NCBI RefSeq assembly: GCF_003688725.1
Contig: NZ_REFP01000007.1
Location: 150,291-214,290, forward strand
DNA length: 64,000 nucleotides
Direction of reading: 5' to 3'
Source of the DNA: Thermoactinomyces vulgaris
GTDB lineage: Bacteria; Bacillota; Bacilli; Thermoactinomycetales; Thermoactinomycetaceae
Below are positions 18,193 through 60,304 of this stretch, piece after piece. A program made the translations under genes and the position numbers. Every line of letters begins with the position of its first letter. The first letter of the stretch is position 1. The notes beneath the pieces were generated by a model, which was given only the letters and a program-made list of their open reading frames with translations, was not told the DNA's origin and searched no databases.

Positions 18193-18354
18193 TTTTTCTC
18201 CTCCTGTTTCTTGATGAGATCCCCTTATCTGATTTTTCAGCAAAACAACAAAACAAAAAGGTAAGTGGTGGCAACCCTCCTTTTTATTTTATCCATAAAT
18301 AATTTTCTACAAAAAAGTAATATATCCTCCTTTAATTTTTAACAATTTGGAATT

Positions 18355-18390
18355 TAAAAAAAGAGCTGACCATCATCGCATCATCAGCTC
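18355..18390 (-). terminator. Terminator of the 73-aa gene
   Basis: On the minus strand GAGCTGA and TCAGCTC arms with a 14-nt loop are followed by TTTTTTT, 19 nt past the stop of the small gene. Confidence 0.85.
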
Positions 18391-18408
18391 CTGAAACGGG
18401 TTGTCGGT

Positions 18409-18630
18409 TCACGGCTCCCTTCCGGGATGGCTGGTTACCGCTTTTTCGTGATCTTCCGCAAACTGTTGTATCTCTTTTTGTAATTGATGTAAATACGCCA
18501 TGGTATCCCGTTGTCTCACCGGATCTGTTTCCGTTTGGGAAAGCAGATGTAAAGCCCGTTGGTAACTGGATGCCAATAAGTGATAATAAGTTTTTTTGGG
18601 TGAAATGTTTTTGATGACGGATGTATTCAT
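18409..18630 (-). CDS. Hypothetical 73-aa helical protein
   Basis: A short gene with AAGGAG 9 nt before its ATG and a strong terminator. The product is hydrophilic and predicted mostly helical (KTYYHLLASSYQRALHLLSQ, MAYLHQLQKEIQQFAEDHEK), without signal peptide, membrane segment or cysteines. I do not recognise a family. It is flanked by the protease gene and a 330-bp gap. It is likely a real cytoplasmic protein of unknown role. Confidence 0.65.
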   Translation of the reverse strand: MNTSVIKNISPKKTYYHLLASSYQRALHLLSQTETDPVRQRDTMAYLHQLQKEIQQFAEDHEKAVTSHPGREP

Positions 18631-18963
18631 TGAAACCTTCTCCTTGCCGTAAAATCCCCGACATTCATATCATACCAGATTTGAAAATGAACCACTGATT
18701 TCCCGGGAAATTACAAAATTGAAAAAAGATCGGTTTCCCCGAACCGAAAAAAGTGATTTTCTCCTGCATGTATTTATCCAGACAGTTGAGTTTTCCGGAG
18801 AAACATGGTCCGTATCGTTGATGTTTTTGTCACAAAGTGGCGTCTGCCGGCTTCGAACTGTTCAGCGCATTTTTGATTGCCGGTTTTGCTTGCACCTTGG
18901 GCACTGCCGTCATATGATGGTATATAGTGATTCAAGATCAGAAAAATAAAAGAGTGAGTGTGC
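18631..18963. other. Gene-poor gap with an orphan terminator-like hairpin
   Basis: No convincing gene is seen in these 333 bp. At 18722-18750 the minus strand reads CGGTT-CGGGG-AACCG-class arms followed by ATCTTTTTTC, a good terminator with no gene directly in front of it. Upstream of it on the same strand is a 24-codon frame (MPKVQAKPAIKNALNSS and on) that may be the tail of a lost gene; this is speculative. The right end should hold the promoter of the exporter-like gene. Confidence 0.4.
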
Positions 18964-19986
18964 ATGATAATCGGATACCGAACCATTAAAACGGCGATCG
19001 GCATTGCGTTATCCATTTCCATTGCGCAATGGATGGGACTGCAATATTATACGGCAGCCGGAATCATTACGATGATTTGCATTAAAACGACAAAGAAGCA
19101 ATCTTATCAAACGGCATGGGAACGTTTTTTCGGCTCTTTGGCGGGATTGGGGATTTCAGCCGTCTTTTTTGAATGGATTGGTTATCATACCTGGACGTTG
19201 ACCTTATTGTTGCTCGTGTTGATTCCGATGAATGTTTATTTAAATATTAAAGACGGGATTGTATCCAGTGCGGTGGTTATCCTGCATCTTTATTTGTTGA
19301 AAGATGTCAATGTGGAGATCATCGTCAATGAAATCATGTTATTGGTGATCGGAATCGGCATGGCGGTTCTGCTCAATGCATACATTCCCAGTGCGGAAAA
19401 AGAGCTGAAAGCGTACCGGCACAAAATCGAAGAAAATTTTAAGATTATCTTGCGGGAATTTGCCGCTTATCTCCGTGAACCCGAGCGGTATTGGGACGGG
19501 AAACAAATCACGGAGACGGCGCAATGGTTAAAGGAAGCCAAAGAGCTGGCTGTCAGGGATATCGAAAATCAATTCAACGGATCAGCTCTTGATTATTACC
19601 AGTATTTTGAAATGAGAGAGCGACAGTTTGAAGTTTTGGAACGGATTGCGCTGACCGTTTCCACTTTAAACAACAGCAGTGAACAGGGGCAAATGATTGC
19701 CGGATTTCTGGAGGATGTAGCGGATGCCATTCATTACGGCGATTCCTCACAAGTGTTCCTAGACCGGTTGCAAGAGATCAGGGAAAGTTTTCATAATTCT
19801 CCTTTGCCTGCGACAAAAGAAGAATTTGAAACGCATGCCGCTTATCTGTATTTTATCAATGAAATGCGCCGCTACTTGATGATTAAGAAGAAATTATGGA
19901 AGGAAAAAGGAGAGAAAAAACAAAAAGAAAAAAGGCCTTTTCGCCTGTTCCCGGTGGTCAGGTGGAAGAAAAAGTCACAAGGCTAG
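18964..19986 (+). CDS. Aromatic acid exporter family (ArAE_1/DUF939-like) membrane protein
   Basis: The product is about 340 aa. Its N-terminal half has four to six membrane helices (GYRTIKTAIGIALSISIAQ, AAGIITMI, then a TLLLLVLIP segment and a VVILHLYLL segment) and the C-terminal half is a soluble helical domain (about 150-340) ending in a very basic tail. This layout and the opening RTIKTAIGIALS fit the YqjA/DUF939 branch of the FUSC/aromatic acid exporters. Substrates are unknown. ATG at 18964 is preferred over the GTG two codons earlier because of spacing to the purine-rich site. Its stop overlaps the convergent small gene by 4 nt. Confidence 0.8.
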   Translation: MIIGYRTIKTAIGIALSISIAQWMGLQYYTAAGIITMICIKTTKKQSYQTAWERFFGSLAGLGISAVFFEWIGYHTWTLTLLLLVLIPMNVYLNIKDGIVSSAVVILHLYLLKDVNVEIIVNEIMLLVIGIGMAVLLNAYIPSAEKELKAYRHKIEENFKIILREFAAYLREPERYWDGKQITETAQWLKEAKELAVRDIENQFNGSALDYYQYFEMRERQFEVLERIALTVSTLNNSSEQGQMIAGFLEDVADAIHYGDSSQVFLDRLQEIRESFHNSPLPATKEEFETHAAYLYFINEMRRYLMIKKKLWKEKGEKKQKEKRPFRLFPVVRWKKKSQG

Positions 19987-53274: not shown

Positions 53275-53302
53275 ACCATTAGCGGAACCCCGACATAATA
53301 TA
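53275..53302 (+). promoter_or_regulatory. Candidate sigma-K promoter of gerE
   Basis: ACC (53275-53277) and CATAATATA (53294-53302) are 16 nt apart, fitting the sigma-K pattern AC - 16 - CATAnnnTA. It lies 60 nt before gerE, which sigma-K transcribes in Bacillus. Confidence 0.6.
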
Positions 53303-53361
53303 ACTTGACTGGTCCCTGACCCTTGTAAATCAAGTGCTCGAGCAAGGAAGGGTGGCATCAT

Positions 53362-53580
53362 TTGAGTAACCGAAGAGGCAACTCCTTGTTGACCAACCGG
53401 GAGAGGGAAGTGTTTGAGCTTTTGGTGCAAGACAAGACAACCAAAGAAATCGCCCAACAACTGTTTATCAGCGAAAAAACCGTTCGTAACCATATCAGCA
53501 ATGTGATGCAGAAGTTAAATGTAAAAGGGCGTTCCCAAGCTGTCGTCGAGTTGGTCCGGTTGGGCGAATTGAAAATTTAA
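53362..53580 (+). CDS. gerE: Spore-coat gene regulator GerE (LuxR-type)
   Basis: The 72-aa product is a lone LuxR/GerE helix-turn-helix: LLTNREREVFELLVQDKTTK, EIAQQLFISEKTVRNHISN and VMQKLNVKGRSQAVVELVRL match GerE almost residue for residue. It acts in the mother cell late in sporulation on coat genes. It starts at TTG behind GGAAGGGTGG. Its last ~87 bp and terminator are repeated at 59470-59604 (see repeat entries); this copy is intact. Confidence 0.96.
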   Translation: MSNRRGNSLLTNREREVFELLVQDKTTKEIAQQLFISEKTVRNHISNVMQKLNVKGRSQAVVELVRLGELKI

Positions 53581-53624
53581 TGGGATGATCCCTGCCTTTA
53601 TGCATGTGGCAGGGGTTTTTGTTG
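53494..53624 (+). repeat. Direct repeat copy 1: 3' end of gerE plus terminator
   Basis: These 131 bp recur at 59470-59604 in the same orientation with two substitutions and a 4-bp insertion. The copy spans the last 29 codons of gerE, its stop and its terminator. It forms the left boundary of a ~5.85-kb block of foreign-looking, mostly broken genes. Confidence 0.95.
53590..53620 (+). terminator. Terminator after gerE
   Basis: CCCTGCC and GGCAGGG arms with an 11-nt loop are followed by GTTTTT. Confidence 0.9.
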
Positions 53625-53920
53625 TATGGAAGGGGGATTCAAGCCCCTTTTTCCCCTCAAGACAGAAAAAATGCTGATTTACGATAAGGATGAGTAGGAA
53701 GGATCGCCGATATTTTCCAATAAATACAATCGAATAAATACTATATTTTATATCTAAAGTAAAATTACCCATTTATAAGGAATATTTATTTAAAATATAA
53801 AGTTTGCAATATAAATGTAATCGAAACCATCTTGCAATTGTTCAGAGGCAGAGGTAAATTTATTTCGTAAATCTGAAAATATTGTTACAAAAGAAAGGCG
53901 ATTCTTTGAAGGAAAGAGGG
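53625..53920. other. AT-rich junction region after gerE
   Basis: About 296 bp without a gene, markedly more AT-rich than the flanking chromosome, especially 53720-53890. This is where the chromosome gives way to the accessory block. No terminal repeat or integrase is recognised. Confidence 0.4.
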
Positions 53921-54113
53921 ATGAGTTTGCAGTTCTTCTATTCCGGGCGTTACTTGCCTCATCGCAGAATGGTCTTTCTGGCCGTCATTCTCACCCTGAT
54001 CCTCACCTTGTGGCCAGACTGGGTTTACTAGGCATTGGCTGCACCGGATCCCAAACCGGTCGAAATCGAAGCGTTGAGCACGGAAAATTCCAAAACATTC
54101 CTCAAGCCAGACC
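53921..54113 (+). pseudogene. 5' remnant of an RHS/wall-associated-type secreted protein
   Basis: An ATG with GGAAAGAGGG upstream opens a signal-peptide-like frame (RRMVFLAVILTLILTLWPDW, then VY) that hits TAG at 54029-54031. Reading through the TAG in the same frame gives ALAAPDPKPVEIEALSTENS and KTFLKPD. ALAA suits a signal cleavage site, and the segment EALSTENSKTF resembles the start of RHS/WapA-like proteins (R-T-E-NSKTF-N-DG). At about 54113 the sequence switches to an NRPS adenylation domain. It is therefore a truncated, stop-containing gene head. Family assignment is tentative. Confidence 0.45.
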
Positions 54114-57100
54114 TATGTATTGGAAGGAAATAAAAAAGGAGTCAAGGGAAAATCCGACACCATTAGCAGGTCCTGAAAACTTGGCTTATATTATTTATAC
54201 CTCTGGCACAACAGGGAAACCAAAGGGAGTTTTAATTGAGCATCGTTCTGTAGTGAACCTGTTGGAAGCGTTACGGGAGAAGATTTATCAAGATGCACAC
54301 GACTCTTTGCAAGTTGCGTTGAATGGTCCGTTTGTATTTGACACTTCGGTGAAACAAATAATCCAGATGCTCGATGGCCATACTTTGCACCTTTTGTCCC
54401 CGAAAATTCGATTTGAAACGGAGAGATTGTTTCAGTATTTGCGGGAATACAAAGTGAATGTGATTGATTGTACGCCCTCACAGTTGGCAGTGTGGATTCA
54501 AGCCGGATTTTTGGAATTGGAGGAACGTCCCAACTATGTTTTGGTGGGGGGAGAGGCCATATGTCCCGATATGTGGCGGCAACTACACAATGATGAGAAA
54601 ACCGTTTTTTATAATTTATATGGTCCGACCGAATGTACAGTTGATGCGACAGTCTGTTGCATCCGGGAGAAACGGCTTCCATCCATTGGCTATCCCATTG
54701 CCAATACACAGGTGTTCGTTTTAGATGAAAAATTGAGAATAGTGCCATTCGGCGCCACGGGGGAACTTTATATAGGGGGAGCTGGACTGGCGCGCGGTTA
54801 TCTTAATGATCCAAAATTGACCAATGAACGTTTTGTTCCCCATCCTTATTCCAACAAACCGGGTGACCGTTTTGGTAAGATTTCAGGAAGATGGGTCACT
54901 CGAGTATATAGGAAGAAATGATCATCAGGTGAAGGTGCGGGGGCACCGTGTGGAGCTTGGTGAAATTGAAGCGGCATTGTGTCTGCATCCATCCATTCAG
55001 GAAGCCGTTGTGATAGGGATTGATGATGGCAACCAAGAGGAAAAACGTTTAGCCGCATATTTTGTGCCAAAAGTGGGACGGAACCTGGAATTGCAGGAAT
55101 TAAGGAGCTTTTTGAAACAATGTTTGCCAGATTACATGGTACCAGCCACTTTCACGAAATTGGAGAAGGTGCCGTTAACCACTAACGGAAAGATCGACTA
55201 CAGGGCTTTACCGTCACCCGAAGAGAACAAATTGGCCGCGAATGCGAATTTTGTCCCCCCTAGCACACCTGAAGAAAGGATCTTATGCGAAATTTGGCAA
55301 AAAGTGATCGGTGTCGATCAAGTGGGAATACATGACAACTTTTTTGCGTTGGGTGGAGATTCGATTATGATTATCCAAGCGGTTTCGCTCGCCAAACGAT
55401 CCAATCTTCACCTTACTCCAGGACAATTCTTCCAATACCAGACGGTATCTGAGCTGGTTAAAATCATGGGAAGCACTTCCCAGGTCAAGGCGCAACAAGA
55501 AGCAGTGTCCGGGGAAGTCATGTTCATTCCGATTCAACACCGGTTTTTTTGAGCGTTCAATCCCCGAGCTGCACCATTGGAACCAATCGGTGCTACTCAA
55601 AGTATTGAAGCCATTGAAAATGAGCGTGTTAACGACGGCTTTCAAGAAGCTGCTCGAACATCATGACGCTCTTAGGCTTCGGTTCCACAAGGAAGAGGGG
55701 GGATGGAAGCAAAGCAATGCGCCAAAGGAGTTGCACCAAATTGTTGAATATGTGGATGTATCCAAGTTTTCAGAAGAGCAGAGATTGAAAAAAGTTGAAG
55801 AAATCGGGGAAAGAACGCAGAGAAAGCTGAATCTTTCGGAAGGTCCCCTAATAAGGGCAGTTTATTTCGATCACGGAAGCGGTGGATCATCCCGTCTGCT
55901 GATCGTAGTACATCACTTGGTCATGGATGGGGTCTCCTGGAGAATCCTTCTTGAGGATTTAGAAATGCTTGTTTGTGGATTGGAGACTGGACAGACCCCA
56001 GCATTGCCGGAGAAAACCACTTCATACCAAGAATGGGCACAAGCCCTTTACCAATATGCGAAGGAAGAGTCGCTGTTGACAGAATTGGCTTATTGGTGAG
56101 AACAATTGGACACAGAAGTTCCGGCACTTCCTGTCGACTGGAAGGACCAATCCAATTTGGTTCGTTCGGTGCAACGTCTTAATGTCGAATTGGATCAAAA
56201 TGAAACGGATTGGCTCATCCAAACCATTCATTCAAATCGGGTCCAGATGAATGAATTGCTATTGGCCGCTTTATTCCTGACGATTTCCGAATGGACCGGG
56301 CAATCAAAGGTGCTTATCGATCTTGAAGGGCATGGCCGTGAAGAGCAGTTGGTTGGCAAATTTGATTTATCTAGAACGGTTGGGTGGTTCACCACAGTTT
56401 ACCCCATCCTGTTGGAAGCCGATCCTGGTCAAATGCCCTTGGCGGTATTGAAAAAATAAGGGAACAATTGCGTTCTGTTCCTAATAAGGGATTTGGTTTT
56501 TATGGTAAGGAATTAAAGAGAAAGCATCATGCGGAAATCAGCTTTAACTATTTAGGGCATTTTGAGAATGTGAATCGAGAAACTTCCTTATTTGAGTCTA
56601 TACTGGAACCGCACGGGAATATGCATGCGCCAAGTTCACCCCGTATGTATTTGTTGGATGTCAATGCGATGATCGTGCAGGAAAAATTGAGGGTTGTTTG
56701 GAGTTACAATCAAAATATCCATCGAAAAGAACGGATTCAAGCGCTTGCGGATTATTTGATCGCACAATTAAAAGTGCTTTGCCATGAGATGCAGGAAAAA
56801 AAGGTGTTGGCTGTATCAGATTTTCCGTTGGCCACACTAACGGAAGAACGATTGGAACGTTTGCTGGATACGCATGGAACATTTGAACTGGTATTTGACC
56901 TGTCCCCGTTCTGTTCGGCATGATCTATTCGGGAAGACCAGCTTCTTTGGATCGGTCCGACCAAATTGTTGGCCGATTTGTCAATATGTTGCCTTTTCGA
57001 ATGAATGTTGCTCAAAGGGGGAATTTCTTCGATTGGATTAAAAAACAGCAAGGAAAACATTTTGACATTCTTCAAAATCAACACATTCCCTTGGGGCAAA

Positions 57101-57423
57101 TTATTGTATGGAATAAATTGGGTCAGGAGAAAAAGTTGCTCAATAACTGTCTCGTATTTGAAAATGTCCAACAGAATGAAATACTTTTGGAAGGATTTCG
57201 CTCTGGGAAATTAACGAATCCCATTTTTGTGCCGGATTCGGACATTCCGCTTAAAGCAATTGTCATCCCAGATCAGCCGTTGAAATTGATGATTTCTTAT
57301 CTGGACCAATATTTCGAAAAGAGTAAAATGATCCGGATTATCGAAGATTTCAAAGATTTAACCGAGCACGTGGCTCATGCGAGAGATTGGGAAATTGCAA
57401 AGTTTCCACTCCCCCAAGCGTGA
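54114..57423 (+). pseudogene. Broken nonribosomal peptide synthetase module: A-PCP-E and partial C
   Basis: Adenylation domain from motif A3 (LAYIIYTSGTTGKPKG) through A5 (NLYGPTE) and A6 (GELYIGGAGLARGYL); frame change near 54880; then A8-A10 (YIGRNDHQVKVRGHRVELGE; NGKIDYRALP) and carrier protein (FFALGGDSI). Frame change near 55550. Epimerization domain with HHLVMDGVSW, EGHGRE, TVGWFTTVYP and FNYLG; in-frame TGA at 56097; frame change in an A run near 56450. Frame change near 56905 into a C-domain C-terminal half (YSGRPASL). A1-A2, most of the C domain and any thioesterase are missing. Four frame changes and one stop make it non-functional as a synthetase. Confidence 0.93.
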
Positions 57424-57509
57424 TTGTATATTGAGGTATGTTGGTACAAAATGAAAATCAGCATACCTCTCCCCATATAATAATAAATATTATATAGAAT
57501 GAGGATGAT

Positions 57510-58748
57510 ATGATGTCGATCTCTAATAACAATACACAAAAACTATACTGGGTTAGTTTACTTAGTGGATTTAATCTATTAGAGCCCATTATGACATTCT
57601 TTTATTTGTCGGTTGGTTTGAATTATACAAATATTTTTGTTGTTTTGCTTTGCTTTAGCGTATCGATTTTGATTTTTGAAATACCAACAGGGGTATTTGC
57701 TGACCGATATGGCGCCAAGAAGTCGCTTTTAGCTGGAACTTTGGTTAAAGCCTTGTCACTTATTTTGTTATTACTGGCAACTAATGAGTGGTATGTTTAT
57801 GCGAGCCAAGTTTTGTCCGGGATGTCTGCCGCTTTCTTTTCAGGAACTGTGGAAGCCATTCTTTATGAATCGTTAAAAGAAGATCGCCGGGAAGAAGATA
57901 TGGCGAAAGTTTACGGAAAAATTGAAGGGGCCGGCATGCTTCCCAAAATGGTGGGGCTTATACTGGGAGCATGGTTGGCAAAAGATTTGACTCTGCTGCA
58001 ATTCCATATCCTGATCGGGCTGAATTTGTTGTTTGTTTTGCTTCAAATCTTTTTCGTTCTTCGAATTATCGAGCCAGCCAGCTTGGATAATTATCGTGAT
58101 CACCCGTGGAGCCATGTGAAAAAAGGGACGAGGGAAATTATAGAGAACCCCAATTTGCTGTTCCTCTTTGCCAATGTCACCATCATTTTTATTGGAACAA
58201 ATATATTTACAAATTTTGAGCAGCCATGGTTTAAGAGATTGGGATTTCCGGTTGAGGCTTTGGGGATTGTTTTTGCTATTGGTTATCTTCTTTCTTATTT
58301 GGTTTCCACCTATGTCGGTTGGCTGACGAAAAAGGTGTCGGAAGTGGCTTGGATGTATATATCCGGTGCTTTGATCATCGCTTCTTATGTTTCTACAGTG
58401 ATATTCGATCATTCGTTGGCTGTTTTTATTATGTCTGGTCTGATGATTCGAGCGGCCAGATCCATTCGCTGGCCGATTTCTTCCAATATTGGAAACCAAT
58501 ATATCTCAACGGGAAGCCGTGCGACCACGTTATCTATGTTGAGTATTCTTGATTCCGTTTTTGATGTCATTTTTATAGGTTCGTTGGCTGTTGTTTCCAA
58601 GTGGGGGATTTCGGAGATTTTTTGGGGCTGTGCGGTTATCTCTTTACTTGGAATCCTGTTCCCTGTCCGCAAAAAAAAGAATCCATCAAAGGTTGAAGTA
58701 AAGTCTGAACCTAACGGAAGCGATGAGAAAGTAGAGGTACAATCATAA
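57510..58748 (+). CDS. MFS transporter (drug/antibiotic efflux type)
   Basis: The 412-aa product has about 12 membrane helices and the MFS loop 2-3 motif GVFADRYGAKKSLLAG. The frame is fully open with GAGGATGAT before tandem ATGs, in contrast to the decayed genes around it. The C-terminus is a hydrophilic charged tail (about 385-412: KKKNPSK, EPNGSDEKVEVQS). Position directly after NRPS remnants suggests it once exported the peptide product and may give self-resistance; this is inference. A diverged copy of its tail is found at 60849-60977. Base composition is AT-rich relative to the core genes. Confidence 0.88.
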   Translation: MMSISNNNTQKLYWVSLLSGFNLLEPIMTFFYLSVGLNYTNIFVVLLCFSVSILIFEIPTGVFADRYGAKKSLLAGTLVKALSLILLLLATNEWYVYASQVLSGMSAAFFSGTVEAILYESLKEDRREEDMAKVYGKIEGAGMLPKMVGLILGAWLAKDLTLLQFHILIGLNLLFVLLQIFFVLRIIEPASLDNYRDHPWSHVKKGTREIIENPNLLFLFANVTIIFIGTNIFTNFEQPWFKRLGFPVEALGIVFAIGYLLSYLVSTYVGWLTKKVSEVAWMYISGALIIASYVSTVIFDHSLAVFIMSGLMIRAARSIRWPISSNIGNQYISTGSRATTLSMLSILDSVFDVIFIGSLAVVSKWGISEIFWGCAVISLLGILFPVRKKKNPSKVEVKSEPNGSDEKVEVQS

Positions 58749-58951
58749 CCAAGGGGCAGAAGTTACTTCAAATGATATCTAGATTCATTAGGTTTCATGT
58801 AAATAATGTCTAAATAGTATTGCGGAAAAACCAGCATTCTTGTGATGAATTAATATTAGCTTTGAAAAAGAAAGAGTACCTACCTCCTGTAATATACGGG
58901 GTGTCAGGTTGCGCGCACTGATCGCTCATTTTTACCAAGGAGGTACTTAAT
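58749..58951. other. Non-coding stretch, probable 5' (left-end) part of an IS110-type element
   Basis: About 200 bp without a gene. From about 58877 it contains an imperfect inverted repeat AGTACCTACCTCC / GGAGGTACT ending at the ribosome site of the dead transposase. In IS110 elements the non-coding end before the transposase encodes a structured guide (bridge) RNA; whether this remnant kept one is unknown. Confidence 0.4.
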
Positions 58952-59370
58952 ACGAATTTTAACCAAAACGAAAAAATAGATCATATTCATTTTGGCTGCT
59001 CATTGTAGGAGTGGACAAAGGGCAAAGAAAAACATATCGCGCGAGCAGTGGATGACCGAGGAATTGAACTAAGAAAACCCTTGTCCTTTACCAATACGAG
59101 AAAAGGATTTGAGCAGCCTTTGTTTTGGATCTGAACGATCCAAAAATCTTATTCCAAACAACACGTGTTGTTTGGAATGGAGCCAACGGGCACTATTGGT
59201 TGAACCTAGCTTACTTTTTGAAACGCCACCAAATCAAAGTAGTCGTGGTCAATCCGTTTCATGTTCATCGTATGAAGGAACTTGAGGAAAATTCTCCAAC
59301 CAAAAACGATGTTAAAGATGCCTTATGTCATTGCTCGGCTAATTCAAGGGGCACGCGGGCGGATCACGGG
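58952..59370 (+). pseudogene. IS110-family transposase remnant
   Basis: Behind AAGGAGGTACTTAAT the start codon position reads ACG, followed by TNFNQNEKID, which resembles the N-terminus of IS110 transposases (MNFNQNEKI). In shifted frames come KEKHIARAVDDRGIELRKPL, SFTNTRKGF, GANGHYWLNLAYFLKRHQIK, VVVVNPFHVHRMKELE and NSPTKNDVKDAL, all characteristic of the RuvC-like N-terminal domain, including the GHYW and SPTKND-KDA blocks. Frame shifts and a stop break it, and the C-terminal catalytic-Ser domain is gone. It is inactive. After DAL the sequence becomes unrecognisable. Confidence 0.88.
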
Positions 59371-59469
59371 AGCGGTTAAGACTTTTCTCGCTTCTAATGA
59401 AGCAGGTGAGTGGGGGAAAGAAATTTTTCGGATTAACCCATGATGGTTCGATTTCGGCAAAAGGTACGC

Positions 59470-59604
59470 ATCAGTAATGTGATGCAGAAGTTAAATGTAA
59501 AAGGGCGTTCCTAAGCTGTCGTCGAGTTGGTCCGGTTGGGCGAATTGAAAATTTAATGGGATGATCCCTGCCTTTATGCATGTGGCAGGGGTTTGTTTTT
59601 GTTG
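59470..59604 (+). repeat. Direct repeat copy 2: gerE 3' fragment with nonsense mutation
   Basis: This is a 135-bp copy of 53494-53624. It differs by C/T at the 7th base region, CCC to CCT (making TAA in frame after GRS) and a GTTT insertion in the terminator T run. It lacks the start and DNA-binding helices, so it is a gerE pseudogene fragment. The endonuclease V gene lies immediately right of it. Confidence 0.95.
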
Positions 59605-59611
59605 AATAATT

Positions 59612-60304
59612 TCAGAAGGAAAGGCGGTTTTTTAAAGCCCTGCGAACGGTTTGGTCGGATTTCCGTGTTGTTTCCGGCAGGCGGTAATGCGGAGAAAGCT
59701 TTAAAATCCAGTCGCAGGCTGTCGATAAGGAGATACGGTGACCAATCGAAACATAGATCGGTTTTACATTGTTCTGAGTCCGCAATACGTTGCCAATCAC
59801 CTCACCGTGATCGGTCAGGGGAGCATGGCTGCCCCTTTGAATTCCCGGCTGTCCGGCTTCACCCGTCAATCTTGTTTTGGCACAGCCGATCGTGGGGACA
59901 TCAAATAAAACGCCTAAGTGGCTTGCGATCCCAAATCGTCTCGGATGGGCGATCCCTTGTCCGTCACAAACAATCAAATCCGGTGCGATGGTTAATGTTT
60001 TTAATGCTTTGGCAAGGGGAGGGATCTCCCTGAACGAAAATAAACCCGGAATATAAGGGAAGCGGGCAACGTCTTCGGCGATCGCTGTTTCTGCGACATC
60101 CAGTGATCCGGCATCCAGCACCACAGCAGCGGCAACCAGTTGCCCGGATTTTTCATCATATGCGACATCCACACCGGCAACATACCTGACTGCATCCAGT
60201 TGGTCTTTTTTTATCACTTTGGAGGCCAAATGCTTTTGGATCCGTAACGCTTCGGATTCGTCTAAATCCCAGGAATGGATCATGCGGGGTTCCAATCTTT
60301 TCAC
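59612..60304 (-). CDS. nfi: Deoxyinosine 3' endonuclease (endonuclease V)
   Basis: The 230-aa product has the family motifs VAGVDVAY (Asp46), the DLIVCDGQGIAHPRRFGIAS block and CAKTRLTG, and ends with the IYVSIGHRISLSTACDWILK block. It nicks DNA one base 3' of deoxyinosine or acts on inosine RNA. GTG at 60304 overlaps the stop of a small upstream frame (GTGA); TTG three codons in, 7 nt after AAAGGG, is an alternative start. It is monocistronic or follows the small frame. It lies just beyond the gerE repeat. Confidence 0.93.
   Translation of the reverse strand: MKRLEPRMIHSWDLDESEALRIQKHLASKVIKKDQLDAVRYVAGVDVAYDEKSGQLVAAAVVLDAGSLDVAETAIAEDVARFPYIPGLFSFREIPPLAKALKTLTIAPDLIVCDGQGIAHPRRFGIASHLGVLFDVPTIGCAKTRLTGEAGQPGIQRGSHAPLTDHGEVIGNVLRTQNNVKPIYVSIGHRISLSTACDWILKLSPHYRLPETTRKSDQTVRRALKNRLSF

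Follow-up and report, generated by a model that had tools for sequence, protein, structure and literature searches.

The closest described counterpart of the locus analysed here is gin of Bacillus cereus ATCC10987, an element that lies in gerE at codons 47–49 (Ile-Ser-Asn) and in which strand exchange takes place within CATCTCAAA; the AA of this sequence, part of an inverted repeat, is the predicted crossover point (PMC5595907). Experiments on gin showed that joining the two halves of the gene gives an intact GerE; the serine recombinase GirC acts together with GirX, and excision takes place in sporulating and not in vegetative cells. GirX, the directionality factor, is a 42-amino-acid (aa) protein with no motif (PMC5595907). 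Reports of gin concern the B. cereus group, and a single prophage at gerE has been noted in B. glycinifermentans (PMC5595907); skin, vfbin, SP-beta (in spsM) and yin are further elements that split sporulation genes, which a recombinase rejoins (PMC5595907, PMC10747680). Here we describe a locus in a 64,000-nt stretch of Thermoactinomyces vulgaris DNA (contig NZ_REFP01000007.1, positions 150,291 to 214,290; the window, in whose coordinates all positions of the locus are given), where an intact gerE gene is followed by a 6-kb block and a second copy of its own 3' end. We conclude that very probably the block is a dead gin-like, gerE-splitting large-serine-recombinase element, that the right-hand repeat is its right attachment junction (attR), and that the host has since regained gerE.

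The gerE gene of the window (53362–53580, + strand) encodes 72 aa with a GerE/LuxR helix-turn-helix (Pfam GerE, E 6.6e-25) and is host-type throughout, its protein being 97% identical to that of the congener G018. A terminator-like stem-loop (CCCTGCC..GGCAGGG and a T tract; 53590–53624, +) was read by eye behind it; a pattern scan for terminators with loops of up to 8 listed none at 53300–53700, so that the gerE terminator rests on this reading. A repeat search and pairwise alignment showed that 53494–53623 recurs on the same strand at 59470–59603, with two substitutions and a 4-bp insertion, confirming the direct repeat that a first-pass annotation of the sequence had described, with a nonsense change and no 5' part in the second copy. 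The first substitution is C/T at 53499/59475; the second, C/T at 53536/59512, turns CAA into TAA in the right copy, and the insertion falls in the T tract of that copy. What stands on the right is a host-type gerE fragment from codon 45 to the stop, without the 5' part (59470–59556, +; new TAA at 59512–59514), followed by the second terminator copy with its insertion (59566–59604, +). These are the only two gerE matches in the 2.56-Mb genome (E ≤ 0.001), and a 130-bp match at 97% identity is far beyond chance.

The meaning of this arrangement emerged from related genomes. When 23 Thermoactinomycetaceae genomes were searched with gerE DNA, 13 were found to carry a second, partial gerE copy downstream on the same contig and strand. 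In ten of these (G001, G002, G003, G006, G007, G012, G014, G015, G016 and G020) gerE is split, the first copy leaving the gerE frame after ..NHISNVM and the remainder of the gene lying 5–49 kb away; Laceyella sacchari and Shimazuella kribbensis, both members of the family, have split genes. Three genomes (the window genome G000, G009 and G019) have an intact first copy and an extra second copy, and the remaining ten have a single intact gene. The repeat starts in the window, 53494 and 59470, mark the same breakpoint that splits gerE in the ten relatives. Furthermore, the interval encodes a recombinase of ~488 aa in 10/10 split genomes, 54–100% identical to that of G003 and with the Resolvase, Recombinase and zinc ribbon domains of large serine recombinases; the ten single-copy genomes contain no recombinase match above 33% identity (E 1e-30). 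The first-pass annotation had proposed that gerE held the insertion site of a mobile element, with the right copy as the dead junction, and had suggested a search for an integrase in complete versions of the block; the junctions and recombinase-bearing elements of the relatives bear out the former, and the large serine recombinase of all ten split genomes supplies the latter. Its comparison of the layout with regeneration at tRNA-type attachment sites was not supported, as 10 of the 13 family genomes with gerE in two pieces have a split gene instead, as with gin (PMC5595907).

The junctions of these elements share a common anatomy. Most right ends read close to TTTGCAAAGGTACGC, directly followed by ATCAGT-AA and then by gerE 3' DNA, and the left junctions carry the mirror image of the right arm after the core. 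Fourteen elements had both ends in the fetched DNA and provide the counts for dyads, core bases and joined halves, the one-ended Gottfriedia and Perspicuibacillus elements being left out. In the reconstructed element site (attP), the best dyad is centred on the AA at core positions 7–8 in 14/14 elements, each dyad matching at 8 to 13 of its 18 positions; shuffled arms (500 runs) placed it there in a mean of 0.6/14 and a maximum of 4/14, although the 14 elements are related and do not amount to 14 independent tests. The six bases to the left of the AA differ between the two element ends in 12 of the 14, and joining the halves gives a GerE frame that runs through to the stop in all 14 (from codon 1, 2 or 7 as aligned).

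The right repeat of the window has this arm and core. An attP half-site (P arm), GCAAAAGGTACGC, forms the right end of the element at 59457–59469 (+); three of four G019 scars carry the identical arm, and the right junctions of split genomes a similar one. It is followed by the attR core ATCAGT-AA (59470–59477, +), with the element-type T at 59475 and the crossover at AA 59476–59477. The core within the intact gene is the unmarked target ATCAGC-AA (53494–53501, +), in which the AA (53500–53501) forms the first two bases of Asn codon 47. Since the right copy has both the element arm and the element's T and the left core reads ATCAGC-AA, the first substitution is derived from the element and represents a recombination footprint; only the nonsense change and the 4-bp insertion in the right copy are decay. 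The block thus sits at the Ile-Ser-Asn codons, with the right copy beginning at codon 45 behind an attP arm.

Two further features of the recombinase genes were noted. Sequence resembling the left attP arm (for example GTACCTTTTGCAAA) stands directly before the gene at L211 (before 582), L092 (before 897) and L104 (before 10001), possibly as a binding site for self-control. At L100 (Gottfriedia) and L106 (Perspicuibacillus) the recombinase lies beside the gerE 5' half on the opposite strand, so that some elements carry it at the other end.

The distribution of these elements extends well beyond the family. A close recombinase match was found in 21 of 398 sampled Bacilli genomes (one decayed and one cut by a contig end), and the attR pattern, allowing up to one mismatch, occurs at 25 places in 22 of the 398, with the reversed pattern, used as a control, absent among the matches listed. 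In tblastn, 24 of the 25 places read as gerE starting near codon 45; the exception is G254, whose contig ends there. A recombinase alignment scan of named genomes returned 33 loci, of which, within the fetched stretch, 26 have a gerE half and one (L119) has an intact gerE and a truncated recombinase; these gerE-associated loci span 20 genera, including Brevibacillus, Aneurinibacillus, Cytobacillus, Heyndrickxia, Lederbergia and Sporolactobacillus. The other six comprise four partial recombinase matches (L112, L116, L118 and L120) and two full-query matches (L111 and L113). Among 14 loci from a viral collection, two (L189 and L198) have a gerE 3' end beside the recombinase. The best phage match, Caldibacillus phage CBP1 (49%), was set aside as a source of attP, which is not readable there: its record stops at the integrase stop codon and its first open reading frame is not gerE.

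We compared the state of gerE with that of the recombinase in 21 genomes with an intact recombinase, 10 from the family and 11 from the class sample; not included were G101, where a contig end cuts the recombinase and only the 5' half of gerE is present, and G019, whose recombinase is decayed. In 20 of the 21, gerE is present only as halves. The exception is again G254, in which a 41-kb contig extends from the left junction (attL) as far as attR and encodes terminase, portal, head, tape-measure and lysis functions, and a joined gerE stands on another contig. Three of its contigs, C25, C1 and C6 (L205, L206, L208–L210), meet at gerE, presenting the left flank, the prophage-like element and the joined gene, an arrangement that suggests that the sequenced DNA held both the integrated and the excised state. 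Conversely, an intact gerE accompanied by a scar was seen in five genomes (G000, G009, G019, G039 and G119), and an intact close recombinase in 0/5; decayed recombinase pieces lie beside the scars of G019. Stops interrupt the scars of G000 and Sporolactobacillus. What counts against a simple rule is the scar of G039, which is perfect (132/132 starting at the AA), together with two scars of G019 that keep the reading frame through to the gerE end; some scars thus show no visible sign of death.

The G019 scars have a structure of their own. At L075 (C55), 880–1890 and 18270–18850, two scars are each followed, right past the terminator, by a decayed recombinase from residue ~158–169; the identical junction occurs twice, as if the unit had been duplicated. 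Three G019 contigs (L048 at 9672, L075 at 19058–19078 and the end of L159) share the short sequence TGACCCCATACGCTT, perhaps the end of an insertion sequence that broke the assembly of a longer array.

Part of the window block is common to G019, which belongs to another genus. Positions 53630–54113 are 97.5% identical to G019 (469/481 ungapped), where the spacer and RHS head likewise stand directly behind gerE and run into an RHS-repeat gene, and 57254–58986 is 99% identical to a separate 7-kb G019 contig, C68; the attR arms of the two genomes are also alike. The gerE genes themselves are only 85.6% identical over codons 1–44 and 79.3% from codon 45 to the stop. The near-identity of the block beside a divergent gerE indicates that element DNA moved between the two lineages. 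The 3' half of the left gene differs from the right copy at 2/87 positions and from G019 gerE at 18/87. It is therefore host-type, which does not support the earlier suggestion that the left gene is a hybrid with an incoming 3' end, and points to gene conversion, or to repair from an uninterrupted allele or from a circle carrying gerE 3' DNA.

We propose the following history. A large-serine-recombinase element would have integrated in gerE at the AA of Asn codon 47, creating an attR in which the element's attP arm is followed by the 3' half of the host's gerE and its terminator; what remains of the element and its cargo after loss of the recombinase would be the 6-kb block. Its living form is seen in the relatives, where gerE is interrupted by an element that encodes the recombinase and where fusion of the two halves at the AA gives an intact GerE frame; by analogy with gin, excision there is probably sporulation-specific. 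In the window lineage the element would have become unable to leave, and gerE would have been regained upstream of the remnant, where the 5' half acquired a second, host-type 3' half. Candidate routes are recombination with an uninterrupted gerE allele, recombination with a circle carrying gerE 3' DNA, or integration of a tandem composite that afterwards lost its left member, with the left 3' half undergoing gene conversion. We infer that the loss of the recombinase and the rescue of gerE are linked. This history builds on direct observations of the attachment-site anatomy, the breakpoint, the recombinase association, the block common to another genus and the decay of the right copy.

Several results weigh against this history. 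Neither the window genome (E ≤ 1e-30) nor, by tblastn, the window (E ≤ 1e-3) has a recombinase match, and no convincing left half-site was found in the block, in which attR is the only attachment junction found; the identity of the element here consequently rests on one end. The full-length recombinase relatives at L111 and L113 have no gerE in the fetched 10 kb. In 2/14 elements the six bases left of the AA are alike at both ends and provide no footprint, G009 and G119 have eroded or short scars, and the evidence for excision in relatives is the hint from the G254 assembly. Sites of the sigma-E/K type were found upstream of the recombinase gene in 2/15 regions, no excess over mononucleotide shuffles (mean 0.61, maximum 3).

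An alternative is that the incoming element brings a 3' end of gerE and a terminator with it; every integration would then reconstitute the gene on the left side, with a dead 3' copy remaining on the right side, much as the 3' end of the target is restored by islands at tRNA genes and by phages at icd. We regard this as rather unlikely for the window, even though it would account for the intact gerE and scar in five genomes, for the RHS head directly behind gerE in both G000 and G019, and for repeats that stop just past the terminator in G000 and G039. Serial insertions would likewise give the four scars of G019 and the more than one 3' copy seen in G039, G125 and Sporolactobacillus shoreicorticis. 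Insertion and rescue may stack, given that the split gerE of S. shoreicorticis is followed by a dead 3' copy and that an additional partial copy occurs in G039. However, the left 3' half is host-type, whereas a target-regenerating event would leave one of the element's type; gene conversion could hide such an origin, and the alternative needs this or a donor of the same species. Moreover, an attP in which the gerE 3' end replaces one arm is equivalent to attR, and to our knowledge large serine recombinases do not normally join attR to attB, the unoccupied target. The right end of the repeat also varies, measured from the core: +134 in G000, +138 in G039, about +174 in G019 and about +330 in G125. 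G125 has two attR copies at a distance of 12.8 kb. Behind the left copy come sigma-factor and kinase-like genes that are found downstream of gerE in its congener G177 as well; behind the right copy come remnants of these genes, succeeded, again as in G177, by racemase, GerM-like and RNase PH genes. Duplication can thus extend to ordinary flanking DNA, an argument against a fixed 3' cassette, and a conserved cassette ending exactly at the terminator, considered as a candidate, is weakened by the varying repeat ends. Between the G125 attR copies lies an operon of the dehydrogenase type (acetoin type, read by eye; L202, 6530–14335 of the reverse complement).

It is less probable still that a G019-like segment bounded by gerE 3' DNA entered gerE by homologous recombination and duplicated the host 3' half with no recombinase acting in this lineage. 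Such an event would fit two copies that are host-type from core to terminator, with a block between them nearly identical to G019, but the switch from element to host sequence falls at the AA, between the T in core position 6 and core position 9, a place at which donor and host have only a few consecutive bases in common, and the same holds for G039, identical to its host gene from the AA onwards. Chance, assembly error and duplication by IS110 are hardly credible: an IS110 remnant does adjoin the right copy, but the same type of junction in relatives adjoins a recombinase gene and not IS110, and IS110 was rejected as the cause on these grounds; the length and identity of the match, the sequence differences between the copies and their position in one contig led us to reject a chance repeat and an assembly error. 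A dead serine-recombinase element with a rescued gerE thus remains the reading we prefer.

The contents of the block agree with the accessory character assigned to it earlier (RHS-like head, nonribosomal peptide synthetase (NRPS) pieces, MFS gene and IS110 remnant), as borne out by Pfam domains and reading frames. The spacer and the head of an RHS-type gene (53625–54113, +; recognized by similarity to G019) contain an in-frame TAG stop and are cut off at about 54113. They are followed by an NRPS remnant in several broken frames (54114–57423, +; AMP-binding, AMP-binding_C, PCP and Condensation), the end of which lies in the second stretch shared with G019 together with an intact MFS transporter gene of 412 aa (57510–58748, +; Pfam MFS_1, E 5.3e-32). 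An IS110-family transposase remnant (58833–59442, +; Pfam DEDD_Tnp_IS110, E 1.5e-11 for 59125–59379) completes the block, and 58833–59355 is 90% identical to a site in G021. To the right of the scar, nfi (endonuclease V; 59612–60304, − strand; Pfam Endonuclease_5, E 4.9e-75) is convergent and presumed to be host DNA. No island-free gerE–nfi junction was found: the one congeneric genome searched, G018, has no nfi match, and its contig stops ~2.4 kb past gerE. Behind the intact gerE of G018 (L056, 1990–2010 and 2480–2900), a possible decayed right arm, CAAATGGTACGTAT, was noted; a RibD-like piece (by eye) and an array resembling clustered regularly interspaced short palindromic repeats also lie there.

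More speculatively, and with less than even confidence, gerE may be a landing site throughout the Bacilli with a cycle of its own, in which integration splits the gene, excision during sporulation repairs it, and a lineage outlives the death of the recombinase only if a second 3' copy serves to reconstruct gerE, which leaves stacked scars that could be dated; composite elements carrying a gerE 3' end may even make such rebuilding routine, in a manner resembling tRNA attachment sites. The remnants show the fate of gerE when such an element dies, the elements serve as natural experiments on the cost or benefit of a split sporulation gene to its host, and the junctions provide attachment sites for a large family of serine recombinases. 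Among titles and abstract openings of open-licence literature we found no report of gerE elements in Thermoactinomycetaceae, or of such scars.

Compared with the target-restoring islands at tRNA genes and icd, the window is alike in having an intact target on one side, a 3' fragment on the other and cargo between them, and unlike them in that its left 3' end is host-type and that relatives carrying a recombinase have a split gene, not a regenerated one. The same principle as in the gerE elements, applied to other target genes, underlies skin, vfbin, SP-beta (spsM) and yin (PMC5595907, PMC10747680). The likeness to gin (PMC5595907) lies in the target gene, the codons, the AA-centred dyad and the serine recombinase of the relatives. 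As described there, gin is without phage genes, whereas the split relatives include at least one prophage (G254). The window departs from gin further, its gerE being intact rather than split, its recombinase and one of the two element ends lost, and a scar remaining. Taken together, gin was already known from the B. cereus group, and what we add is that the same gerE codons are occupied in many genera by elements sharing an attachment-site palindrome.

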